A DNA stretch of 10,432 nucleotides, taken from positions 1 through 10,432 of the forward strand of contig JAJRTK010000139.1 of the NCBI GenBank assembly GCA_024278345.1, read 5' to 3'. Source of the DNA: a bacterium. Lineage in GTDB: Bacteria > CSSED10-310 > JAJRTK01. This document shows, piece after piece, positions 3 through 10,432 of this stretch. Made by a program: the position numbers and the translations under genes. How positions within the stretch are numbered: the stretch's first letter is position 1; every line of letters begins with the position of its first letter. The notes under the pieces are model-generated. The model worked only from the letters and a program-made list of their open reading frames with translations. It was not told the origin of the DNA and ran no database searches.

Positions 3-711
3 GAGCCTGTCCTGAGGAAGCAGATTGGGAAGGAGGAAATCGTCATGCGCGGGGACGGCAAGCCGGACCGGCGCTACAATCCGCACTACACCTGGCCTGA
101 GAGCTGTGTTTATGGGACCGTGAGCAAGACCTACACCCGAGGCGGAGCCAGTTCGGTGAAGCGGAAGCTCGTCCATGGCACGGAAGAGGAGCTTGAGAAG
201 GCCTTGGGTGAGGGGCCTCGGTCATGGTACCGGCCACGGTTCAGATTTCAGACGCCGCCCCGGGGCTTCCAGCCCTGGAACCCGGCGGAGGCTCCGCCTC
301 CGGACCTCCGCTGGGAGCGCCGCTCCCAGACCCACATCTTTGTGCGCTGCGCGCTTTTTTCGGGTGGCCGGTACCATGACCGAGGCCGGCGAGTCGAAAG
401 TGAGCAGGAAGATCAACACGGCATTCATCGAGCGCCAAAACGGAACCGACCGGACACACAACGCCCGCAAGGCGCGCAAGACCTTGTGCGTTTCCAAGGA
501 TTTCGTCATGCCTCTGGCGGTCTCGTGGTGGGTGATGGTCTGCGACAACTTCCATTTTGTGAATAGTGGTCTGCGTCTCGTGCTGGAGCCCTTGCAGGTG
601 TTGCATCGCACGCCAGCGATGGCCATGGGGCTCGCGCGGAAGATGAGTGTAGAGCAGTTGGTTTTCACGCCTGTGAGCGACCTACCGTTGGTCTCTGAGC
701 TGAGGCCCTGA
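3..711 (+). pseudogene. 3' part of an IS1-like DDE transposase gene, interrupted by a short element
   Basis: Two reading frames together make the C-terminal part of a transposase. The first frame is open from position 3 (the gene starts upstream of the window) to about 212 and includes YGTVSKTYTRGG and LVHGTEEELEKALGE. The second runs from about 394 to the stop at 709-711 and reads SKVSRKINTAFIERQNGTDR, then NARKARKTLCVSKD, ending with HRTPAMAMGLA. The 'INTxFxERxNGTxR...ARKxRKT..FSKD...RTPAMAxGL' pattern is, from memory, typical of the catalytic C-terminal half of IS1-like/integrase-fold transposases; the Glu of FIER would be the last acidic residue of the DDE triad. The break is explained by the insertion at 213-387: deleting 213-393 joins GGT GAG to TCG AAA in frame (ALGE-SKVS). 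No product would be functional as it stands. The family name is less sure than the fact that it is a transposase. Confidence 0.8.
213..387. mobile_element. Nonautonomous MITE-like element with 24-bp perfect inverted ends
   Basis: Positions 214-237 and 364-387 are perfect reverse complements (24/24; the core is GGTCATGGTACCGGCCAC and its complement). The flanks GGTGAG (207-212) and GGCGAG (388-393) look like a 6-bp target duplication with one mismatch. The element sits inside a transposase reading frame and excision of element plus one flank restores it. The interior has no gene. It holds four hairpins, each with a three-base loop: 263-275 (GGGCT-tcc-AGCCC), 287-301 (GGAGGC-tcc-GCCTCC), 311-329 (CTGGGAGC-gcc-GCTCCCAG) and 344-354 (GCGC-tgc-GCGC). 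The last is followed by six T (355-360), so it resembles a plus-strand intrinsic terminator. No transposase is encoded, so it would have been moved in trans. Confidence 0.8.
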
Positions 712-745
712 CTACTTTCAGCCATGGAAGCGGGCAGGGCCTCAG
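700..745 (+). repeat. 11-bp inverted repeat overlapping the transposase stop codon
   Basis: CTGAGGCCCTG (700-710) is the exact reverse complement of CAGGGCCTCAG (735-745), with a 24-base loop. It begins inside the last codons of the transposase gene. It may form a transcript-end hairpin or be part of the insertion-sequence end. No T-run follows, so it is not a standard intrinsic terminator. Confidence 0.4.
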
Positions 746-853
746 AGAAGCGGCCCTGGCGTGAATGCCCTAACCATGGAGCACCACCGGAAGTTCTGGT
801 GCGCTCTCTTCTTTTGCCGGAATTCGCCCCTGACACGGGTGATGAAGGCGAGT

Positions 854-877
854 GGCGGCGGACGGACTGCCGCCGCC
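854..877. repeat. 8-bp GC-only hairpin in the leader region
   Basis: GGCGGCGG (854-861) pairs with CCGCCGCC (870-877) across an 8-base loop. It lies about 55 bp upstream of the predicted -35 box of the efflux operon and would insulate the operon from upstream transcription if it acts as a terminator, but no T-tract follows. Apart from this hairpin, the 700-745 inverted repeat, and the promoter and palindrome downstream, I see nothing in 712-1017. Confidence 0.4.
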
Positions 878-932
878 GGGAGCGGAACTCAACAAGGAAT
901 AGAATATTAGTTTTGGAAAGAAGCTTCTCCTC

Positions 933-962
933 TTGAAAAAATGTTCGGGGGGGGCCTATTAT
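933..962 (+). promoter_or_regulatory. Predicted sigma70-type promoter of the efflux operon
   Basis: TTGAAA (933-938) and TATTAT (957-962) are separated by 18 bases, close to the sigma70 consensus TTGACA-N17-TATAAT. The spacer contains a run of eight G. The predicted transcription start (about 968-970) lies some 50 bases upstream of the first gene. An overlapping TATAAA (960-965) would need a 21-base spacer and is less likely. This is the only convincing promoter found ahead of the three-gene pump operon. Confidence 0.55.
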
Positions 963-971
963 AAAGTGTTC

Positions 972-995
972 TTATCGAATACGTTGGACCGATAA
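972..995. promoter_or_regulatory. Spaced palindrome just downstream of the promoter; possible operator
   Basis: TTATCG (972-977) and CGATAA (990-995) are inverted copies with 12 bases between them, about the predicted transcription start. That position suits a repressor site for metal-dependent control. The half-sites do not match the CusR, CueR or CopY boxes I know, and a 6-bp half-site pair can arise by chance, so this is tentative. Confidence 0.3.
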
Positions 996-1017
996 TCGTT
1001 CGGAATAGAAGGTGCTG

Positions 1018-2355
1018 ATGTCCATACAACCTATATTGCGGAGTCTTGGCTTGCTTTTAGTCCTGACCACGCTGGCCCCAAAGATCGTCCAATCCGCTGA
1101 AAATCCTGTCAAGAAAGAGTCCGCTGAAAAGGCTGAAGTCAAGGCCAAAGAGGAGCTTTCCTTGTCGGCCCTCGTCGAAGAGGCTCTTCAGAATCATCCA
1201 TCTCTCAGTGTCACTCAACATGCGGCGGAGGCCGCTGCTCGAGTCCCGTCCCAGGTTGGCGCACTGCCCGATCCCGTCATCGCGCTCAACATCTCTAACC
1301 TTCGGATCGACGATCCTTCCCTGTCGTCCAGTCCCATGTCGGGGGTCCAGCTTGCGGTTCAGCAGGCAGTGCCGTTTCCAGGGAAGCTGGGACGACGCCG
1401 GAAAGTTTCTGAAGCGGGGGCAACCACGGCGCGCACGGTCAACCGCCTGCAAGAGATCGCGGTCATTCGCGAGGTCAAGGTTGCGTACTGGGATTACACG
1501 TACGCTCATGCCGCCGAGACGATTACGCGGCAGAACTTGAGTATCCTCGACACGCTGGTCAATGTGGCCAACAGTCGCGTTGCAGTAGGGCAAGGGGCAC
1601 AGCAGGACGTGCTCAAAGCACAAGTGGCCCTTGGCCAGCTCCGTGACCTTCTTCTGATCCGGGAACAGCAGACCGGGACGGCAGTGGAACGTTTGAGCAT
1701 CGCCGTTGGGCGCGAGCCCGGTCTGCCTTTGCCCATCTCGCCGCCGACAACGGCGCCGCCGCCTCCTCCATCGCTGGAGCTTTCTTCTTTGCTGGAGGAA
1801 TTGGAAGAGACCAACCCGCAGTTGCAGGTTCGTGACTCCATCGTGCAACGGACCAAGGCCAGCGTGAGAGAAGCACGCCATGATCTCTGGCCCGACTTTG
1901 TTTTCGCTGGCGCCTACCGATTTCGTGGAACGGTTCCCGGGGATGCTTCCGACGGCGCGGACATGTTCTCGATATCCGTTGGACTGAGTGTTCCCCTGTA
2001 CGCCGGCTCCAAGCAAAAGCAAAGGATCGCGGAAAACCGTCAGATCGACCTGCAGGCACGGGCAAAAGTCCAAGATACGCGTCTGACGGTGCAATTCGAA
2101 GCTCGCCGACTTTGGGACGAGCTTCAGCGGCTCGACGGCCAGGAAAAGCTTTACAGGCAGGAAATCCTGCCTCAGGCAAATATGGCGTTGGAAGCCTCCA
2201 TCACTGAATATCAAGTAGCCAAGGTCGGATTTTTTTCGGTCCTGGACAACTGGCGACGCCTTTTCGACTCCGAGATCACACACGAGAGGATCCTGGCCGA
2301 TCGGTCGATCCGTGTGGCTGAGCTGGAAGCTGTCGTGGGGAGGGAACTGCAATGA
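1018..2355 (+). CDS. TolC-family outer-membrane efflux protein (CusC/CzcC-like)
   Basis: This is the outer-membrane channel of a tripartite heavy-metal efflux complex. From ATG 1018 it has 445 residues. Residues 1 to about 26 form a signal peptide (SLGLLLVLTTLA core, cleavage near VQS-AEN). Two outer-membrane-efflux repeats follow (about 35-235 and 255-440), joined by a Pro-rich linker at 242-252. AVPFPGKLG at about 117-125 is the usual signature of metal-efflux TolC proteins. There is no lipobox Cys, so unlike E. coli CusC it is probably not lipidated. ATG 1018 is preferred because GAAGG (1008-1012) is spaced correctly for it; GTG 1012 is in frame but overlaps that site. The stop overlaps the next start (ATGA, 2352-2355), indicating translational coupling. 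The CusC-type assignment rests mainly on the neighbouring pump. Confidence 0.92.
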   Translation: MSIQPILRSLGLLLVLTTLAPKIVQSAENPVKKESAEKAEVKAKEELSLSALVEEALQNHPSLSVTQHAAEAAARVPSQVGALPDPVIALNISNLRIDDPSLSSSPMSGVQLAVQQAVPFPGKLGRRRKVSEAGATTARTVNRLQEIAVIREVKVAYWDYTYAHAAETITRQNLSILDTLVNVANSRVAVGQGAQQDVLKAQVALGQLRDLLLIREQQTGTAVERLSIAVGREPGLPLPISPPTTAPPPPPSLELSSLLEELEETNPQLQVRDSIVQRTKASVREARHDLWPDFVFAGAYRFRGTVPGDASDGADMFSISVGLSVPLYAGSKQKQRIAENRQIDLQARAKVQDTRLTVQFEARRLWDELQRLDGQEKLYRQEILPQANMALEASITEYQVAKVGFFSVLDNWRRLFDSEITHERILADRSIRVAELEAVVGRELQ

Positions 2356-3674
2356 AGAACTGGAGACCGAGTATGAAATCAGTGGCCTTTTTGGGAAGCA
2401 TTCTTCTGCTTGTCTGGACGCTGTCGGGCTGTGGCGGAGGAGAGGGAGGCTCCCAAACGGCGGGACAGGGAGCGGCGGAGGGGAAGAAAGTCATCTACTG
2501 GAAATCTGGTATGGACCCCTCTTTTGTCTCCCAGCGGCCGGGCAAAGATGCCATGGGAATGGAGCTTATTCCCGTCTATGAGGGCGACCCTGGGGCCAAT
2601 CTGACCTCGATCATCGTTTCCGGGCTAACTCTTCAACGAATGGCAGTGCGGACCTATGAAATCGTCCCGAAAAACCTGGAGCGATCCATTCGATCCGTTG
2701 CGACCATCAATTATGACGAAAGCACGCTCTCGTTGGTCAACTCGAAGTTCGAAGGTTGGATCGAAAAACTCTATGTCGATGAGACCGGACAGTATGTGCG
2801 GGCCGGATCGCCTCTTTTTGATATCTATAGCCCGGAATTACAGGCCAGCGCCGAGGAGTATCTTCAGGCACTGCTAGGAAATCCAAAGCTTCCCCACGTG
2901 GAGCATCTCATCGAGTCCGCTCGAAACCGCCTTGAGCAGTTCGATGTTCCCAACTCCGTCATCGACAGGATAGCAAAAACAAAAAAGGTGCCCCGGATCC
3001 TGACCATCCGGGCACCGAAATCCGGTTATGTAATCCACAAAAATGCACTGCAGGGAAGCTACGTCAACAAGCACGAAACCTTGTTCAGGATCGCGGATCT
3101 GCGGAAGATCTGGGTTCTGGTGGATGTCTATGAGTATGAACTTCCCTGGCTCAAGCTCGTGAAAGACGCCGATATGGAGTTGACCTACGTTCCGGGCCGA
3201 ACGTTCAAGGGGAAGATCGATTACGTCTACCCGTTCTTGAACCTGCAGTCCAGGACCGTGAAGGTTCGCATCGTCTTCAAGAATCCAGACCTCATCCTCA
3301 AACCCGGGATGTTCGCGTCGGTCTGGTTGCGAGCCAAAACAAAAGATCCCGTGTTGGTTGTCCCCTCTGAAGCAGTCATCCATTCTGGGAAGAGAAATGT
3401 GGTCTTTGTCTCCCAAGGAGATGGTAGCTTCGAAGCCCGAGATCTCAAAATCGGCCGTACGGGGGATGGCGGAGACTACGAAGTGCTGAAGGGACTGGAA
3501 CCAGGCGACCTGGTAGTCACCAGCGGTCAATTCTTGCTGGACTCCGAAAGCCGGCTCAAAGAAGCTGTCGCCAAGATGCTGGGAACCAATCTCCCGGCTG
3601 ACCCGGAAGATGAGCCTGTTCAACCCGAGCCGGAAAAAGCTGGCGAAGGGGACAAGCCGGACCAAGGCAAATAG
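2352..3674 (+). CDS. cusB: CusB-type periplasmic adaptor lipoprotein of a Cu/Ag RND efflux system
   Basis: This is the membrane-fusion adaptor that links pump and outer-membrane channel and delivers metal to the pump. It has 440 residues (E. coli CusB has 407). Residues 1-27 are a lipoprotein signal with lipobox L24-S-G-C27, so the mature protein should be anchored by lipid. Residues 47-76 form a heavy-metal-binding domain in its methionine version (YWKSGMDPS... GKDAMGMELIPVYE). Met54, Met68 and Met70 correspond to the three Cu(I)/Ag(I) ligands of E. coli CusB, with one residue less between the first and second. The two halves of the barrel-sandwich domain are at about 136-163 and 219-250, followed by a beta-barrel and a membrane-proximal domain; the C-terminus is a charged, Glu/Lys/Pro-rich tail. 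GGGAGG (2338-2343) supports the start at 2352 over the internal ATG at 2373. No CusF-like domain is fused or encoded next to it. Confidence 0.93.
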   Translation: MKNWRPSMKSVAFLGSILLLVWTLSGCGGGEGGSQTAGQGAAEGKKVIYWKSGMDPSFVSQRPGKDAMGMELIPVYEGDPGANLTSIIVSGLTLQRMAVRTYEIVPKNLERSIRSVATINYDESTLSLVNSKFEGWIEKLYVDETGQYVRAGSPLFDIYSPELQASAEEYLQALLGNPKLPHVEHLIESARNRLEQFDVPNSVIDRIAKTKKVPRILTIRAPKSGYVIHKNALQGSYVNKHETLFRIADLRKIWVLVDVYEYELPWLKLVKDADMELTYVPGRTFKGKIDYVYPFLNLQSRTVKVRIVFKNPDLILKPGMFASVWLRAKTKDPVLVVPSEAVIHSGKRNVVFVSQGDGSFEARDLKIGRTGDGGDYEVLKGLEPGDLVVTSGQFLLDSESRLKEAVAKMLGTNLPADPEDEPVQPEPEKAGEGDKPDQGK

Positions 3675-3687
3675 GGGGGGAAGCAAG

Positions 3688-6600
3688 ATGTTCGACAAGC
3701 TCATCGAAAAATGCGTGGCAAACCGCTACTTCATCTCTATTCTCCTCGTCATGGCCATGGTAGTGGGGGTCGAGTCCATGATGAACACGCCCCTGGACGC
3801 GATCCCTGATCTCTCCGATGTCCAAGTGATTGTCTTCACCGAATTCGCCGGCCAAGCTCCGCAGGTGGTGGAGGATCAGGTCACCTACCCGCTCACCACC
3901 ACTCTGTTGTCGGTGCCGCGTGCCAAGGTGGTCCGTGGATACTCGTTCTTCGGTTACTCTTTCGTCTATGTGATCTTCGAGGACGGCACCGACCTCTATT
4001 GGGCTCGCAGCCGGGTCCTCGAGTACCTCAATTTCGTTCGGGGACGCCTTCCCAGCACCGTGAACCCTGCCTTAGGCCCAGATGCCACCGGCGTCGGGTG
4101 GGTTTTCGAATACATTCTGACAAGTGACCGGCATGACCTCGCCCAGCTCCGTTCCATCCAGGACTGGTTTCTTCGCTACGAACTGCAAACCGTGCAGGGA
4201 GTCTCAGAAGTGGCTAGCGTGGGTGGCTTCGTCAAGCAGTACCAAGTGACGGTCGATCCGGACAAGCTTCTAGCGTTTAATATTCCACTGTCGAGGATCA
4301 AACACCAGATCGTTCGGAGCAATAATGACGTGGGAGGCCGGCTGCTGGAGCTGGCCGAAAACGAGTTCATGGTCCGGGGACTTGGATACATCAAGTCCAT
4401 CGAAGACCTGGAGTCGATCCCGCTGACCGTCACCGAAGACCATGTGCCCATCCGCATCAGCGACGTGGCCACCGTAAATCTAGGTCCTGAAATCCGTCGG
4501 GGCTTGCTCGATTGGAACGGCGAGGGAGAAGTCGTCGGTGGCATCGTCGTCATGCGCTACGGCGAAAACGCATTCCGTGTCATCAGCGATGTCAAAAAAC
4601 GCCTGGCCGCTCTCCAATCGTCCCTCCCGGAAGGCGTGGAAGTCATCCCGGTTTATGACCGATCCCACCTTATCGAACGTTCGGTGGAGACTCTCCAAGC
4701 AAAACTTATCGAAGAGTGCATCGTGGTGGGGCTGGTCTGTCTCATCTTTCTTCTCCACCTACGCAGTGCGTTGGTAGCGATCTTCACGCTCCCAGCGGGA
4801 ATCCTACTCGCCTTTTTGGTGATGCGCATGCAGGGGGTCAGCGCCAACATCATGAGTCTTGGCGGTATCGCAATCGCCATTGGAGCCATGGTGGACGCCG
4901 CGATCGTCATGATCGAAAACATGCACAAACACCTGGAACGGGATGCCGGGAAGTACACCCAGTGGGAGATCGCCGTGCGTGCCTCTCAGGAGGTGGGCCC
5001 GTCTCTCTTCTTCTCCCTTCTCATCATTGCGCTCTCGTTCCTGCCGGTGTTTAGCCTGCAAGCCCAGGAGGGACGCCTCTTCAAACCACTGGCCTTTACC
5101 AAGACCTATGCAATGGCTGCGGCCGCCTTCCTATCGGTCACTGTCGTGCCGATCCTTATGGGATTCCTTGTCCGTGGAAAAATCCGGCCTGAAGCATCCA
5201 ATCCAGTCAACCGTTTCCTCATCTTCATCTATCGCCCCGTCCTCTTATTCTGCCTAAAATGGCGACGATGGGTCGTCGTCGTCGCCCTGGCCTTGCTGCT
5301 AGGGAGTGCTTACCCGGCCCGGAAGCTGGGATCGGAGTTTATGCCGCCGCTCTATGAGGGTGATCTTCTTTACATGCCGACTCTGCTTCCTGGAATCTCT
5401 ATCACAACGGCCAAACAGATCCTCCAGGCCACTGATCGGATTATCCGCAGCTTTCCCGAGGTTCACCACGTCCTAGGCAAGGTGGGCCGAGCCGAAACGG
5501 CCACCGACCCATCTCCCGTCTCGATGATGGAAACAATCGTGACCCTCCGTCCCGAGGAAGAGTGGCGTCCGGGAATGACGCCCGAGAAGCTCATTCGGCA
5601 ATTGGACAATGCCATTCGCTTCCCCGGTGTGACCAACGCCTGGACCATGCCCATCAAAGCTCGAATCGACATGCTCTCCACCGGGATTAAAACACCCGTG
5701 GGAATCAAGCTCGTCGGCCTCGACCTAAACGTTCTGGCGGAACTCGGGGAACAGGTCGAAGCCGTCATCAGGGAAGTGCCGGGAACTGCCTCCGTCTACG
5801 CGGAACGGGTCACCGGCGGCAATTACCTCGACGTGAAAATTGATCGTCAAGCAGCCTCACGCTACGGCCTCACGGTGGGGGATGTCCAGGACGTCATCTC
5901 GTCCGCCATTGGCGGCATGAACGTCACCATGACCGTAGAAGGACTCGAACGCTACCCCGTCAACGTGCGCTACGCCCGCGAGCTCAGAAATGACCTCAAC
6001 GCTTTGAAGCGAGTGCTCATACCCACGGCCATGGGGCATCAAGTGCCCCTGGCTCAATTGGCTGAGCTGAAATTTGTTAAGGGTCCCCCCGTAATCAAGA
6101 GCGAGGGCGCTCGCCCCAATGCCTGGATCTATGTGGACGTGGAAGGCGCTGACATCGGCGGCTATGTCGAAAGAGCGCAAAAAGCGGTCGAAGCACGAAT
6201 TCAAATGCCACCAGGCTACCAGATGATCTGGAGCGGCCAGTACGAGTACATGCAGCGGGCATCCGAGAGGCTGCGTGTCGTGGTACCTATTACCATCCTC
6301 ATTGTCTTCATGCTTCTCTACTTGAACTTCCAGAGCATGACCGACAGCCTCATTGTCATGCTTTCGCTGCCCTTTGCTCTGGTGGGTGGTGTCTGGTTTA
6401 TCTACCTGCTGGGCTACAACATGAGTGTGGCCGTGGGGGTTGGTTTCATTGCCCTCGCTGGGGTGGCATCGGAAATCGGGGTCGTGCTCATCATGTACCT
6501 GCGCCACGCCGTCGATGAACAGCGGCAAAAGGAAGGAGAAGCCTTCAACGTCGGGCACTTGTTGAAGGGCATCCTGAATGGCTCCGTGGAGAGAGTTCGA

Positions 6601-6852
6601 CCCATCGTGATGACAGTTACCGCCGTTATCGCCGGGCTTCTCCCCATTCTTTGGGGCCATGGAACCGGAGCCTCGGTGATGAAACGGATTGCCGCACCCA
6701 TGATCGGCGGTATGGTTTCCGCGGCGCTCCTCACGTTGCTGGTCATCCCCGTGATCTACTTCATGATCTACCATCGTGGACTGCCTGCAGCTCAACCTTC
6801 GCCTTCCTCTGACTCCGGAGAGGCATCACCCGATCCACAATCCCCTGCCTGA
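3688..6852 (+). CDS. cusA: CusA-type heavy-metal RND efflux pump (Cu(I)/Ag(I))
   Basis: This is the inner-membrane proton-driven pump; it has 1054 residues, normal for the HME-RND family, starting MFDKLIEKCVANRYF. The start at 3688 has an AG-rich ribosome site (3673-3680) 13 bp after the adaptor stop; the in-frame ATG at 3610 lies inside the adaptor gene and would add 26 non-homologous residues. Met563 (LLYMPT), Met613 (SMMET) and Met662 (RIDMLSTG) have the same spacing (50, 49) as the E. coli CusA periplasmic triad Met573/623/672. The membrane Met ladder is also present (Met389, 401, 408, 476, 491, 998). Asp403 in GAMVDAAIVMIEN and Glu929 in GVASEIGVV match the relay residues Asp405 and Glu939. 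The third relay residue, Lys984, is Ile973 here (RVRPIVMT). A Cu/Ag substrate is inferred from the Met residues, against the Zn/Co/Ni type. Confidence 0.95.
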   Translation: MFDKLIEKCVANRYFISILLVMAMVVGVESMMNTPLDAIPDLSDVQVIVFTEFAGQAPQVVEDQVTYPLTTTLLSVPRAKVVRGYSFFGYSFVYVIFEDGTDLYWARSRVLEYLNFVRGRLPSTVNPALGPDATGVGWVFEYILTSDRHDLAQLRSIQDWFLRYELQTVQGVSEVASVGGFVKQYQVTVDPDKLLAFNIPLSRIKHQIVRSNNDVGGRLLELAENEFMVRGLGYIKSIEDLESIPLTVTEDHVPIRISDVATVNLGPEIRRGLLDWNGEGEVVGGIVVMRYGENAFRVISDVKKRLAALQSSLPEGVEVIPVYDRSHLIERSVETLQAKLIEECIVVGLVCLIFLLHLRSALVAIFTLPAGILLAFLVMRMQGVSANIMSLGGIAIAIGAMVDAAIVMIENMHKHLERDAGKYTQWEIAVRASQEVGPSLFFSLLIIALSFLPVFSLQAQEGRLFKPLAFTKTYAMAAAAFLSVTVVPILMGFLVRGKIRPEASNPVNRFLIFIYRPVLLFCLKWRRWVVVVALALLLGSAYPARKLGSEFMPPLYEGDLLYMPTLLPGISITTAKQILQATDRIIRSFPEVHHVLGKVGRAETATDPSPVSMMETIVTLRPEEEWRPGMTPEKLIRQLDNAIRFPGVTNAWTMPIKARIDMLSTGIKTPVGIKLVGLDLNVLAELGEQVEAVIREVPGTASVYAERVTGGNYLDVKIDRQAASRYGLTVGDVQDVISSAIGGMNVTMTVEGLERYPVNVRYARELRNDLNALKRVLIPTAMGHQVPLAQLAELKFVKGPPVIKSEGARPNAWIYVDVEGADIGGYVERAQKAVEARIQMPPGYQMIWSGQYEYMQRASERLRVVVPITILIVFMLLYLNFQSMTDSLIVMLSLPFALVGGVWFIYLLGYNMSVAVGVGFIALAGVASEIGVVLIMYLRHAVDEQRQKEGEAFNVGHLLKGILNGSVERVRPIVMTVTAVIAGLLPILWGHGTGASVMKRIAAPMIGGMVSAALLTLLVIPVIYFMIYHRGLPAAQPSPSSDSGEASPDPQSPA

Positions 6853-6916
6853 GTCGAAACTCCCACTGCGGACTTGCGGAAGCAGCTGAACTATCCTCCT
6901 CGCAGCATCCTGGTCA

Positions 6917-6944
6917 GCCTGGGCGAATCACGATTCGCCCAGGC
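6917..6944. terminator. 12-bp perfect hairpin after the pump gene (REP-like or terminator)
   Basis: GCCTGGGCGAAT (6917-6928) pairs perfectly with ATTCGCCCAGGC (6933-6944) over a CACG loop, 65 bases after the pump stop. No T-run follows on either strand, so it may stabilise the 3' end of the message rather than terminate it. Its GGGCGAAT/ATTCGCCC core recurs in the palindrome at 7655-7689, which suggests a repeated extragenic palindrome. Confidence 0.55.
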
Positions 6945-6966
6945 AAGGATGTGAAAGACAGGGGCT

Positions 6967-7002
6967 GGTCCCACGAAATGCGCCGTGGGCGGGACCCTTC
7001 TT
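6967..7002 (+). terminator. Possible weak terminator between pump and PII genes
   Basis: GGTCCC (6967-6972) pairs with GGGACC (6991-6996), and an inner CCAC/GTGG can extend the stem with a bulge. It is followed by the pyrimidine-rich CTTCTTCTC. If it works, it would lower transcription into the PII-like gene, giving regulator and pump different levels. The rest of 6853-7081 shows no clear promoter. Confidence 0.35.
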
Positions 7003-7081
7003 CTCATTGTGGGGGTGCTTCTGGACCTGTACCGCTACGACCTTCAGTGAGAAGCTCGGGCTTGCATAAGAGAGGTTCCCC

Positions 7082-7426
7082 ATGAAAGAGATCAAAGCTT
7101 ACATTCGACCGACCTTCCTTGAAGGGACAATCGCGAAACTCGAAGGAGCTGGCGCCCGGGACATCACAGTCATTCGGGTCGATGCCATCGGCCACATGGC
7201 TGACCACGAAGAAGACCGCAAGCATTTTTTCCGGAAATACAACGAGAAATACTGCTGTATTTCAAAGCTGGAAATCGTATGCCGAGACGAGGAAGCGCCA
7301 GTCTTTATCGACATTATCAAGAGGCATGCCAAAACTGGAAAGCCCGGGGACGGCCGCATCTTTCAAACAAATGTAGAAAGAGCCGTACGCATCCGCACCG
7401 GCGATGAAGGTGAGGGGGCTCTCTAA
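7082..7426 (+). CDS. PII-like nitrogen-regulatory family protein, metal-efflux-linked type (PII-NG)
   Basis: This 114-residue protein has the full length and fold pattern of GlnB/GlnK. It starts MKEIKAYIRP; the B-loop TGKPGDGRIF (85-94) and the C-terminal RIRTGDEGEGAL (103-114) are conserved, so nucleotide binding at the trimer interface is likely. The T-loop (about 37-57) is unlike GlnB. It lacks the RQKGHTELYRG motif with the uridylylated Tyr51 and instead has GHMADHEEDRKHFFRKYN, followed by KYCC, with Cys58, Cys59 and Cys67. PII proteins of this type, encoded beside heavy-metal RND pumps, have been described as a separate group (PII-NG). A role in gating or sensing for the adjacent pump is inferred from that linkage; the His/Asp/Glu/Cys content makes metal binding conceivable. 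AAGAGAGG (7068-7075) lies six bases before the ATG. The gene is 229 bp after the pump gene on the same strand. Confidence 0.9.
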   Translation: MKEIKAYIRPTFLEGTIAKLEGAGARDITVIRVDAIGHMADHEEDRKHFFRKYNEKYCCISKLEIVCRDEEAPVFIDIIKRHAKTGKPGDGRIFQTNVERAVRIRTGDEGEGAL

Positions 7427-7442
7427 CCTTGAAATGTCGCGA

Positions 7443-7470
7443 ATTTCCGGAGGTGTCTAAACCCGGAAAT
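7443..7470. repeat. 8-bp inverted repeat after the PII-like gene
   Basis: ATTTCCGG (7443-7450) is inverted as CCGGAAAT (7463-7470) with a 12-base loop, 16 bases after the PII stop. It may be the 3' hairpin of that transcript, but there is no T-run. Its right arm lies within the end of the element at 7452-7644. Confidence 0.35.
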
Positions 7471-7644
7471 CTCACCAAATCTCTGCTGCGTCAACGCAAT
7501 CGTCGCAGCCAACGGCCTCTTCCTCGATCAGGCGTCCTCAACATAGTTCTCAAGCCTCCGGCGCCTGCCTGTCGTCGGACTCATCGGCTGCACCGCCTCG
7601 CGACGGGATTTGATGAGAAATCTGGGTCTAAACCCGTGGACACC
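7452..7644. mobile_element. MITE-like element with imperfect inverted ends
   Basis: The left end (7452-7483) begins GGTGTCTA and continues AACCCGGAAATCTCACCAAA. The complement of the right end begins GGTGTCCA, then GACCCAGATTTCTCATCAAA. After the shared GGTGTC and a short insertion, 18 of 24 positions match (two inserts and several substitutions in total). The 11-mer GTCTAAACCCG also occurs in direct orientation at 7455-7465 and 7626-7636. The interior (about 130 bp) has no plausible gene. The size and inverted ends fit a decayed nonautonomous element; the parent transposon is not identified. Confidence 0.5.
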
Positions 7645-7654
7645 ATCACCGGTA

Positions 7655-7689
7655 GCCGAAGGGGCGAATAGATTATTCGCCCCTTCGGC
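7655..7689. repeat. 16-bp perfect palindrome with a three-base loop
   Basis: GCCGAAGGGGCGAATA (7655-7670) pairs perfectly with 7674-7689 over the loop GAT. It lies 11 bp beyond the MITE-like element and shares the GGGCGAAT/ATTCGCCC core with the hairpin at 6917-6944. It is probably a repeated extragenic palindrome. From here to about 7828 I see no gene or other clear structure. Confidence 0.65.
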
Positions 7690-7828
7690 GTCTCAATACC
7701 GCGCTTCTACTAGTCGCTCCTCCTGCCAGATATGCAGCCGCCACAACCCACGATGGACGCCCCCACCACCGATCTTGGGACGAGCGGGGGAGGAACACCT
7801 CTTCGCTTACAAAGTCGAGGTATCCACT

Positions 7829-7876
7829 TACGTTCATGGAGCCGAATCGATCCACCCCAGATGCATAAAAAAAAAG
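7829..7876. repeat. Partial copy A of a diverged repeat family
   Basis: The segment ACGTTCATGGAGCCGAATC (7830-7848), then CCACCCCAGA, ATG and a run of nine A matches the end of the unit at 8578-8622 (ACGTTTATGGAGACGAATC, CCACCCCAGAGAATG, A-run). Only this part is well preserved; the sequence to its left is too diverged to align by eye. Confidence 0.6.
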
Positions 7877-8333
7877 GCGCCGCCGAGCGGTGGCGATGCG
7901 TTGACAAGAGGCCGGAAACGCCGTAACTACGGGCCGTTCCACACGACTACATCTAGAAGACAGATCTCTGCTTCAGGTGTATTTTCACAGTAACTCGTGA
8001 GTCGCAAGTTCTCGGGATGATCCTGGTGTTTTTCCTGGGTTCGCGGGCGTCCCGCCCGCAACAATGGCCCGTGGGAACGAGGTTGCCGTGGGAGCGTTAG
8101 CCAAGCCGCAAAAAAACAAGAACCTCTCCATCAAAGGCTAGAACTATCGCGCCCATGATGCTTTCACCAAGGCGGTCCTGAGAAGCCGGACACGGCCTCG
8201 TCCCTTGGGAACACCGAAACGCTTTCCAACAAGGCGTTGGACGGTCAGTGGAGAACTTGCGACTCACGAGCACTTAACACTCATGGGAGAATCGAACCAC
8301 CCCGAAGAATGAAAGAAAAGACGCGCAGCGTCA
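7871..8333. repeat. Copy B of the diverged repeat family, split by a 277-bp insertion
   Basis: The left half (7871-7993) aligns with 8463-8577: GCCGAGCGG, GCGTTG, GAGGCCGGAAACGCCG against GAAGGCCAGAAATTCCG, then CATCTA, GAAGACA, and TGTATTTTCACAGTAA against TGTACTTTCACGGTAA. The right half resumes at 8271 with TTAACACTCATGGGAGAATC, ACCACCCC, GAATGAAAGAAAAG and the triloop hairpin GACGC-gca-GCGTC, matching 8574-8633. CACAGTAAC before the insertion and CACTTAAC after it may be its degenerate target duplication. Confidence 0.6.
7994..8270. mobile_element. 277-bp element with 20-bp perfect inverted ends
   Basis: CTCGTGAGTCGCAAGTTCTC (7994-8013) is the exact reverse complement of 8251-8270. The element interrupts a repeat unit whose uninterrupted relative is at 8463-8640, which defines both edges independently. 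The interior has no gene. It carries a triloop hairpin, GCGGGCG-tcc-CGCCCGC (8043-8059), and a small palindrome CCAAC-aaggc-GTTGG (8226-8240). It is best read as a nonautonomous transposon; I do not recognise its family. Confidence 0.7.
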
Positions 8334-8462
8334 AAAAAAGACGCGCAGCGTCATCATGCACCCACCAGGGAGCAGGTGCTCCCTGGTGGGTGCAGGGCAA
8401 AGCCCTGCCAGGGGACCGGGGACAGAGTCCCCGGACGACCGCCGAGTAACGCGAGGCGTTAC
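8320..8462. repeat. Array of six hairpins, five with three-base loops
   Basis: In order: GACGC-gca-GCGTC twice (8320-8332 and 8340-8352, period 20 bp); a 17-bp stem 8357-8373/8378-8394 with loop AGGT; GCAGGGC-aaa-GCCCTGC (8392-8408); CCGGGGAC-aga-GTCCCCGG (8416-8434); and GTAACGC-gag-GCGTTAC (8446-8462). On the minus strand the first two are followed by TTTTTTT and CTTTTCTTTC, so they read as tandem intrinsic-terminator-like structures. There is no coding potential of interest. The stems differ in sequence but keep perfect pairing and loop size, which argues for selection on, or replication through, the folded form. Confidence 0.75.
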
Positions 8463-8640
8463 CCGCCGAGCGGAGCGCGGCGTTGCCCGAAGGCCAGAAA
8501 TTCCGCAAAACCATAGGTCGTAAACCGCATCTACGACACGAAGACAAATTTCTGCATGGCGTGTACTTTCACGGTAACGTTTATGGAGACGAATCAAAAC
8601 CACCCCAGAGAATGAAAAAAAGACGCGTAGCGTACAAAAA
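8463..8640. repeat. Copy C of the diverged repeat family, uninterrupted
   Basis: This is the complete relative of copy B. It starts in CCGCCGAGCGG, passes AGGCCAGAAATTCCGC, CATCTACGACACGAAGACAAA and GTGTACTTTCACGGTAACG, and ends in CCACCCCAGAGAATG, an A-run and the triloop hairpin ACGC-gta-GCGT (8623-8633). On the minus strand the hairpin is followed by C and seven T, again terminator-like. After it comes ACAAAAACGTGGGTCC, which links it to the element at 213-387. Confidence 0.6.
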
Positions 8641-8647
8641 CGTGGGT

Positions 8648-8700
8648 CCAGGGAGTGAACTCCCTGGTGGGTGCAGGGCAAAGCCCTGCACCCACCAGGG
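8648..8700. repeat. Overlapping palindromes, one with an 18-bp perfect stem
   Basis: Positions 8662-8679 pair perfectly with 8683-8700 over loop AAA. CCAGGGAGT (8648-8656) pairs with ACTCCCTGG (8659-8667), competing with the first arm. Positions 8660-8689 repeat 8379-8408 exactly (30 bp direct repeat), so the two hairpin regions share a module in different surroundings. Confidence 0.75.
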
Positions 8701-8930
8701 CCCACTCATTCAGTAATGCTGGAACAGACTGATTCTATTAGACTTTCACAAAGCACCCCACTTACTCCGCATCTATTTGAAAGCACTGGGCTTTTCTTGA
8801 AAAATACCCAGCTCCTGAGCACATCTACTACCCTGAAAACGACCGGAAGCCCGATGACGACGAAGCTTGTGGCGGCTTAGTAGTTTTGCTTTTTATTTCA
8901 AACACTTCCACCATGACGGAATGAGTGGGC
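8700..8930. mobile_element. 231-bp element with 25-bp inverted ends (22/25)
   Basis: Positions 8700-8724 begin GCCCACTCATTCAGTAATG and match the complement of 8906-8930 (GCCCACTCATTCCGTCATG) at 22 of 25 positions, including the terminal GCCCACTCATTC and the inner TGGAA. The interior has no gene; it is more A+T-rich than its surroundings and contains an imperfect hairpin at 8786-8811 (CTGGG...CCCAG with inner TTTTC/GAAAA). No target duplication is visible. The left end abuts the 18-bp palindrome. It reads as a MITE-like element unrelated in sequence to the others. Confidence 0.6.
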
Positions 8931-8946
8931 ATGGAAATCGCCGGGA

Positions 8947-8970
8947 CCTGTTGCAATGAAAGGCAACAGG
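8947..8970. repeat. 8-bp hairpin downstream of the minus-strand surface-protein gene
   Basis: CCTGTTGC (8947-8954) pairs with GCAACAGG (8963-8970) across eight bases. It lies about 130 bases past the stop codon of the minus-strand gene and could mark its transcript end, although no T-run follows on the minus strand. Confidence 0.4.
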
Positions 8971-9012
8971 AGGGAACGGAGAAGAGGAAGCGTCCGGTGG
9001 ACGGTTTCGCCG

Positions 9013-9052
9013 TTCCCCAACCACATCTTTGTAAGCTTCGCGGTTTTTCTTT
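9013..9052. repeat. Third copy of the CACATCTTTGT / GCT-CGCG / T-run motif
   Basis: CCCCAACCACATCTTTGT (9015-9032), AGCTTCGCGG and TTTTTCTTT align with 327-360 in the element at 213-387 (CCAGACCCACATCTTTGT, GCGCTGCGCGC, T-run) and with the minus strand of 8610-8650 (GGACCCACGTTTTTGT, ACGCTACGCGT, T-run). The hairpin is decayed here. Confidence 0.5.
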
Positions 9053-9099
9053 GATTCCTTGAGTGTCCCGCCATGGGTGAATACCCCGCAGCGCTAGTT

Positions 9100-10432
9100 T
9101 CATGACCTCCTTCTAGCTCTCCAAATCGGAGTCATCACCACCAGGAGAAGGAGTAGGAGCAGCTCGACAAGCAATGAGCCCTCCGATTGAGCACCAACGA
9201 CATGACGAGTCGCTGTCGGCGTAGCCGTAAGAGTGGAAGTCGCCGTTGGCGTAGACGTTGCTGTTGGCGTCGCGGTGAAAGTGCTTGTCGGCGAGGAAGT
9301 GCTTGTCGCCGTTGGGGTGGATGTCGCGGTGGCTGACGGAGTTGAGGTTGCCGTCGACGTGGATGTCGCGGTAGCTGACGGTGTGCTCGTCACGGTCGAT
9401 GTCCAGGTAGCCGTAATCGTCGGCGTATGGGTTGCGGTCACCGTTGGCGTAGGCGTGAAGGTCACAGTCTGTGTGGGCGTCAATGTTGGCGTAGACGTCG
9501 GCGTAACAGTCGGTGTCAACGAAAGACAATTGTTTGGAAGCCCTGGTGTATCGTCAATTGCCACGTCGAAGACCCCTACAAACCAGTTGCCTGCCGCCCC
9601 ATCTGGGCACCGGAAAACGTGACCTGGAGCAAACCCGTTGTCAGGCCCGACCGTTGGCGGGCCGTAATGGAATTCGGTGCTGGCCGGAGGATTCTCCTCT
9701 TTGATGACCGCTATTCTATCAAACTCCGCCGTCCAGGGAAGCGAATCCAACACCCCATCGTCATTGAGATCCAAATCATCTCCGTTCGTCCCTGTGAACC
9801 CAGCAACCAAGAAGTGCGTGACGTTGTCGTTGTTCTCAAAGTTCAAGTTCGTCACGAGGTCGGGAGTACTCAGAGTAAAAGTTGTTTCGGCTGCGACAAA
9901 TAACCCACTGGCGGGAACAACAGTCCCTGCAAGATCGATGACCGCCTCGATCACACCGCTACCACCCGAGGCACTGTCTCCAATCACCAAATAGGTCAAT
10001 CCGTTTAGAGCCCGTCCCGGCGGCCCTATCAACTCGAAATACTCATTGTCGTCAGTACCTGTCTCGTCCGTCCGAATCTCATTGATCACTACATTCTGAA
10101 CAATGGGAGTCGGAGTGATCGTGGATGTGGCAGTTGGTGTAACTGTCGATGTGCTCGTTGGGGTGGATGTACTCGTTGGCGTCGATGTATTTGTCCGGGT
10201 GGCCGTAATCGTCGGCGTCAATGTCGATGTGCTTGTCGGAGTCGATGTTCGGGTATTCGTCGAAGTCGGAGTCAACGTTGCCGTATTCGTCGGCGTCAAC
10301 GTCGCAGTATTGGTTGGCGTCAACGTTGCCGTATTCGTCGGAGTCAACGTTGCCGTATTCGTCGGAGTCAACGTTGATGTACTTGTCGGTGTCAATGTAC
10401 TTGTGGGCGTTGACGTTGCCGTGCTGGTTGGC
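9100..10432 (-). CDS. Partial surface protein: Thr/Pro-rich stalks, lamin-tail-like domain, C-terminal anchor
   Basis: This is a minus-strand gene whose 5' end is outside the window: the frame is open through 10432 ([12 protein letters not shown] precedes the internal TTG codon at 10393-10395). It runs in three parts plus an anchor. First is a Thr/Pro/Ser/Asn repeat stalk (10432-10108) with an 8-residue period, LTPTNTAT. Then comes a globular domain (about 10107-9526) starting [21 protein letters not shown], which resembles the lamin-tail domain start 'vxINEIxxxxxxxEYxEL'; it contains an acidic, possibly Ca-binding stretch, [15 protein letters not shown] second Thr/Pro/Ser/Ala stalk follows (9525-9190). 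The C-terminus has a hydrophobic run, [19 protein letters not shown], followed by RARRRS. That tripartite end resembles C-terminal sorting signals such as PEP-CTERM-type tails. The protein is probably exported and cell-surface exposed, with O-glycosylation of the stalks possible. Its function is unknown and it has no evident link to the efflux operon. Confidence 0.85.
10271..10366 (-). repeat. 24-bp tandem repeat, four full units, coding
   Basis: Units start at 10271, 10295, 10319 and 10343 (plus-strand unit GTCAACGTTGCCGTATTCGT then CGGA or CGGC). Three are nearly identical and one (10295) differs at several positions; a partial unit follows at 10367. Each encodes one LTPTNTAT octapeptide on the minus strand. 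Such near-identical units can change number by slippage or recombination, so stalk length may vary between strains or be misassembled. Confidence 0.85.

Follow-up and report, generated by a model that had tools for sequence, protein, structure and literature searches.

The window, i.e. the whole 10,432-nt stretch of DNA analysed here, carries two arrays of short, perfectly paired hairpins (214-387 and 8274-8700), and we consider it probable that these arrays are modular interiors of several families resembling miniature inverted-repeat transposable elements (MITEs), about 150-360 bp in length, moved by an unlocated DDE-type transposase and reworked in their interiors by template switching and slippage. 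A preliminary description had listed thirteen stems with three-base loops; the observation of triloop hairpin arrays is real, and all thirteen stems were found in place and pairing perfectly. As a repeat system of the MITE type it is known in kind; unusual is the modular hairpin interior, and the main interest lies in the record of palindrome growth. The draft assembly is fragmented into 550 contigs, with a completeness of 87.9%, and about 1.28 Mb of it were sampled for comparisons of copies.

Inverted-repeat families framing the hairpin arrays

The first array lies within a family A copy (214-387, plus strand; 174 bp instead of the usual 201 bp) with hairpins at 263-275, 286-302, 311-329 and 344-354. 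Enclosing it are perfect 24-bp terminal inverted repeats (TIRs) missed by the preliminary description, GGCCTCGGTCATGGTACCGGCCAC at 214-237 on the plus strand and its counterpart at 364-387 on the minus strand. Across the genome, 216 A ends with up to 2 mismatches were detected, 108 on each strand, against none for the reversed control pattern, which corresponds to approximately 110 copies if each has two ends. Full A copies, compared by eye, are mostly 199-235 bp long. Of 12 copies with both ends in the sample, seven had target duplications (perfect 8-bp duplications in six and a 9-bp duplication in the seventh). The window copy is inserted in an IS1-like transposase gene, the 3' part of which (388-711, plus strand) has a homologue in contig C548 with 91% DNA identity and matches DDE_Tnp_IS1 with E 2.4e-4 and 21.9 bits, under the cut-off of 24.1; the probable 5' part (45-213, plus strand) was assigned from the protein sequence, with no Pfam match on its own. 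Another A copy (C5:335-535) is situated inside an ISL3 transposase gene, with a 9-bp duplication.

Family B, with 439 ends (GGGTATCCACGCAAGGCGGGACA) in the genome and TIRs of about 23 bp, includes copies with the same modules as the second window array. Target duplications accompany 11 of 15 pairs of B ends (perfect 8-bp in 8/15 and 9-bp in 3 more), and A and B copies with perfect duplications span 169-355 bp. Family D is smaller (156-158 bp), with TIRs of about 15 bp, duplications of about 6 bp, as judged by eye, and a triloop hairpin of its own, ACCGGCA-AGA-TGCCGGT. None of the small A, B and D copies, high in number as they are, carries a transposase gene. It is the framing inverted repeats, the 8-9 bp target duplications and the copy number that demonstrate mobility of these elements, which would be moved, now or recently, by a DDE-type transposase supplied in trans.

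From its sequence, the second array (8274-8700) comprises two elements of family C, related to A, the second of them truncated. The complete element (8274-8578, plus strand) encloses the interior hairpin array between presumed ends starting with TTAACACTCATGG and finishing with GTGTACTTTCACGGTAAC; the truncated one (8575-8700, plus strand) shares the terminal GTAAC with it. The ends of the family, TTAACACTCATGGAGACC and GTTACCGTGAAAGTACACG, were deduced from copies. Half of a family B-like element occupies 8930-9086 on the minus strand, with the B end GGGTATTCACCCATGGCGGGACA at 9064-9086. It should be added that a perfect 20-bp inverted repeat (7994-8013 and 8251-8270, 237 bases apart) surrounds the hairpin 8043-8059 and looks like a further small element inserted beside the family C elements. 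Yet another repeat family, without hairpin arrays, is represented by a stretch of ~170 bp at 7460-7630, which recurs at about 82% identity in L125, L081, L112 and L150.

In being short and non-coding, with TIRs, target duplications, high copy number, mostly intergenic location and stable interior hairpins, these elements are similar to bacterial MITEs such as Correia/NEMIS, ERIC, RUP, QMITE and Chunjie (PMC10969869, PMC2229807), which, according to review, are typically AT-rich. Unlike those, the interior here consists of at least four separate GC-rich hairpins with loops of 1-3 bases and shared linkers, and is exchanged between families with different ends. The BOX, RUP and SPRITE clusters of S. 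pneumoniae (PMC10969869) also bring different small elements together in nested and clustered form, including a terminator-like one; the likeness is one of organisation, and the modules here are located within TIR-bounded elements.

Modular interior and growth of hairpins

Read on one strand, families A, B and C have a common order of modules: an A-tract, a GCGC-type hairpin (slot S1), ACA...TGTGGGT, and CCAGGGAG..CTCCCTGG (S2). In A, these are followed by CTGGGAGC..GCTCCCAG, CGGAGGC..GCCTCCG and AGGGCT..AGCCCT, and in B and C by GCAGGGC..GCCCTGC (S3), GGGGAC..GTCCCC (S4) and GTAACGC..GCGTTAC. In the complete C element, S1 is present twice in tandem (GACGC-TGC-GCGTC, 8320-8352), with a T-tract after each copy on the minus strand; then come S2 (8357-8394), S3 (GCAGGGC-AAA-GCCCTGC, 8392-8408), S4 (CCGGGGAC-AGA-GTCCCCGG, 8416-8434) and GTAACGC-GAG-GCGTTAC (8446-8462). 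The A array of the window finishes with an S1 hairpin of the GCGC type followed by TTTTTT (342-360, plus strand), resembling an intrinsic terminator. What it lacks is exactly one 27-nt hairpin unit, CCAGGGAGCCAGCTCCCTGG with its linker, between two ACCCAC linkers, one linker remaining at 330-335; 26 of 27 sampled copies have this unit. Tandem multiplication was found as well, as 24-nt units in L005 and L020.

This modular order alters the initial picture of unrelated stems with exactly three loop bases. Several of the stems are the same hairpin slots in different copies: 8320, 8340 and 8623 belong to one slot, the core of 8662-8700 shares another with 8392-8408, and 8357 and 8648 belong to a third. 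The insistence on three-base loops was selective, as the same arrays also hold equally strong stems with two unpaired loop bases that had been left out (8357-8394, 18 bp; 8648-8667, 9 bp), and so had a 13-bp stem with a two-base loop elsewhere in the window (6917-6944). Moreover, 311-329 is a 9-bp stem with a one-base loop (a GCC loop if the last pair is left open), and 344-354 and 8623-8633 have only four pairs each. The hairpin 7655-7689 has no repeat copies in the sample and does not belong with the arrays. Together with 6917-6944, it forms a pair of long single hairpins outside the arrays. Both lie close to the genes for the efflux pump and the P-II protein, their GGGCGAAT..ATTCGCCC cores are similar, and each is unique in the sampled sequence.

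The suggestion that loop size is conserved and stem sequence is not had to be revised: stems are more conserved than loops, and loop size is not always three. Diversity in loop and stem was 0.559/0.022 for S2, 0.214/0.070 for S3, 0.307/0.089 for S4 and 0.198/0.005 for A4. For S2, S4 and A4, though not for S3, the search patterns were in part anchored to stem bases, an effect that lowers the measured stem diversity. Stem changes among copies are compensated in S4 (GGGGAC-GGA-GTCCCC, GGGGAT-GGA-ATCCCC and GGGGCC-GGA-GGCCCC), and the same applies to the variants AGGGCT-GGA-AGCCCT and AGGGCC-GGA-GGCCCT, to TAACGC-GAG-GCGTTA and TCACGC-GAA-GCGTGA in the slot of 8446-8462, and to a separate hairpin with conserved flanks, the arm of which reads GTGCGCAGGCC, GGGTGCGGGCC or GGGCGCAGGCC, with the opposite arm matching in each case. 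Pairing in S4 reached 0.958 compared to 0.891 for shuffled arms, a value attained in 1 of 2000 shuffles. Stem covariation is real, but modest. A strand bias of G.T wobbles in S3 amounted to about three events only and was not used.

Three long palindromes derived from a shorter family hairpin were found in the sampled 1.28 Mb. At S2, the nearest copy, L006, has CACGTGGGT-CCAGGGAGCA-GG-TGCTCCCTGG-TGGGTGCA; in the window (8357-8394), TGCACCCA stands in place of the left flank CACGTGGGT and is the reverse complement of TGGGTGCA on the right, so that the stem has grown from 10 to 18 bp. At S3 of the truncated C element (8662-8700), the sequence after GCCCTGC is ACCCACCAGGG instead of the CAGGGGACC of other copies; ACCCACCAGGG is the reverse complement of CCCTGGTGGGT upstream, and the stem has grown from 7 to 18 bp. 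The third case, L106:2273-2319, belongs to family D: its right arm is replaced by the reverse complement of the left flank, extending the stem from 8 to 22 bp, and its length is almost equal to that of L135 and L139 despite the extension. As read from the copies, these three extensions support intrastrand template switching (quasipalindrome correction), being the footprints expected of it.

The arrays also leave a trace in the genome at large. In 1.0 Mb of contigs chosen by number, not by content, palindromes with three-base loops and stems of at least 7 bp numbered 232, in comparison with 58.8 (sd 3.4) in dinucleotide shuffles within 2-kb blocks, a 3.9-fold excess that bears out the initial observation and has its source in the repeated families. 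Loops of 1, 2 and 8 bases were 1.6-1.9 times as frequent as in shuffles, and loops of 5-7 bases showed no enrichment (1.0-1.2 times). In several copies (L112:14520-14647, L018:1561-1688 and others) one S2 arm is swapped for a different hairpin, TCCCGTTGCAACGAAGGGCAACGGGA, with an 8-base loop, which explains part of the excess at that loop size. A genome of the same phylum had no three-base-loop excess (12 palindromes vs 15.7 in shuffles), and a Myxococcota genome had one of 2.1 times.

Proposed mechanism and competing explanations

In the mechanism we propose, the short GC-rich hairpins, separated by linkers of the ACCC(A/C)C type, would be kept perfectly paired and sometimes lengthened by intrastrand template switching at replication: the nascent strand would fold at a hairpin and copy its own other arm. 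Slippage between linker repeats would lead to gain and loss of units. Template switching is proposed from the three sequence footprints described above, and slippage from the loss of one 27-nt unit and the two 24-nt tandem amplifications; the enzymes and timing of both steps are conjectural. The same template switching presumably keeps the small hairpins perfectly paired, and replication through folded single-stranded DNA, one of the possibilities raised initially, is now the favoured source of this pairing. The broader idea of a structure-based origin is likewise supported by the greater conservation of stems than of loops, by compensated changes in several slots and by the three fold-back extensions. 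Quasipalindrome correction by template switching is known in E. coli (PMC7202029) and yeast (PMC8604942), where arms of inverted repeats are homogenised in one event with multi-base changes, as seen here. What differs from those studies is that the footprints are natural, occur in copies of dispersed repeats and extend hairpins well past the original stem.

Several observations speak against this interpretation, in addition to the anchored patterns mentioned above. Covariation in S3 was not above that of shuffled arms, and RNAalifold on 21 arrays recovered double changes at 2 pairs only, with a covariation score of -0.54 kcal/mol; this near-absent score can be attributed to the young age of the copies and their nearly invariant stems. 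The window's own A copy lacks a perfect target duplication. Both the ends and any duplications of family C are putative, and its TIRs fall short of the standard of A, B and D. Some palindromes could have been touched by assembly error in this fragmented draft. Finally, no autonomous partner was found: IS256 was absent, and IS1, IS4/5-type, ISL3 and IS1595 were represented by fragments or had unrelated ends only. Pairs of A or B ends enclosing more than 355 bp were likewise absent from the sampled part of this draft, in which repeats are lost where contigs end. Many accepted MITEs are without a known parent element.

The compensated changes could instead result from selection on transcripts, with stems kept as terminators or RNA-processing sites and without template switching, which we hold to be possible, though on the unlikely side. 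In 62 of 66 S1 copies, at least five of the 8 bases preceding the stem are A, which on the opposite strand places a T-tract behind it, and this slot was called terminator-like on both arrays. The flanks of sampled copies are non-coding more often than random positions (44% vs 11% for A, from crude calls of open reading frames), and loops more variable than stems are also what such selection would produce. However, a GC stem followed by a T-tract was found at S1 only, and the several other hairpins of each array lack T-tracts. Stepwise selection would not be expected to add 8-14 paired bases at once, and the z-value of the A array folded as RNA was -3.0 (without terminal repeats), compared with -9.6 and -9.9 for the arrays folded as DNA under the parameters used. 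The structured RNA proposed in the preliminary description is plausible only as a terminator-like end, with no Rfam model matching at threshold. Selection for structure is a real rival and probably contributes at S1, where the GC hairpin with its T-tract is a predicted intrinsic terminator at one end of the element.

A related explanation, which we find improbable, is that the hairpins were selected for strong folding as single-stranded DNA, with purine-rich GNA-type triloops closed by C-G, in elements with a single-stranded stage such as replication-linked transposition. GNA-type DNA triloops fold with exceptional stability, and GNA/TNC loops made up 23 of 76 non-identical three-base-loop palindromes (stem of at least 7 bp) vs 7.4 of 41.8 in shuffles, mostly on one strand within an array. 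Nevertheless, these 76 palindromes are not independent enough for a claim of selection, S2 loops have two bases, duplications of 8-9 bp argue for double-strand DDE chemistry, and no single-strand transposase could be linked to the arrays. The possibility, raised in the preliminary description, that a Y1 (RAYT) transposase acts on the arrays as REP/REPIN-type palindromes was rejected as highly improbable. Like GTAG and CGTC REP families, BIMEs and REPINs (PMC3733652, PMC3116915), the arrays contain short perfect palindromes, clustered, dispersed and in high copy number; their triloop hairpins are reminiscent of REPs, and the search for a Y1 gene did return one RAYT-like candidate in the genome, single and below the Pfam cut-off (L001:1012-1737, contig C390). 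This gene has a REP-type palindrome of its own (GGGCGGGTTCGGAACCCGCCC next to CTAC), duplicated inside its frame. That GTAG-type palindrome differs from the array hairpins and occurs in 1-2 copies in 0.9 Mb, no conserved unpaired GTAG or CGTC tag (as defined in PMC3733652) is present in the slot table, and the arrays are enclosed by TIRs of 23-24 bp with target duplications, which, in place of any RAYT link, account for their mobility.

Distribution, neighbouring genes and implications

Among 59 other genomes, the A end (up to 3 mismatches) was found once, as a lone site with 3 mismatches and without an array in G003; seven of the genomes compared were from the same phylum, with no close relative among them. 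A first scan of a genome collection, in which the window's own genome is probably not included, found no A end, and no copies were detected on sequenced plasmids. A loose search allowing 9 mismatches returned mostly noise and a few older relatives. Arrays of the same design with two hairpins (AGGGAGC..GCTCCCT, a GGGTG linker, and GGGGC-AAA-GCCCC) and with flanks unrelated to this genome were present in Myxococcota metagenome-assembled genomes (L226-L230, L232 and L233), as a separate dispersed family, and in one Synergistaceae genome (L231). These arrays with unrelated flanks, together with the three fold-back lengthenings described here, lead us to suggest, very tentatively and as an unlikely generalisation, that strings of short hairpins with GGGTG/ACCC linkers may constitute a general unnamed repeat class, arising repeatedly in unrelated phyla by fold-back template switching and also maintained by it, with transposable elements merely as carriers.

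The remainder of the window encodes a tripartite metal efflux operon of the CusCBA type (1012-6852), followed by a P-II family protein (7082-7426). A long protein encoded on the minus strand at 9100-10395 has Thr-Pro repeats and no Pfam match; close to its end, a hydrophobic segment with a basic tail is suggestive of cell-surface sorting.

At the level of the assembly, 75 of 179 contig ends had a repeat motif within 200 bases, as did 64 of 4000 stretches chosen at random from contig interiors. These repeats thus take up about 40% of the contig ends sampled, which helps to explain why the assembly is in 550 pieces. Hundreds of copies in one genome, each open to comparison with sibling copies to show which way a change went, make the families a natural record of palindrome growth. 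The three fold-back footprints also suggest that compensated changes in hairpins, usually taken as evidence of selection on RNA structure, can come from copying error.

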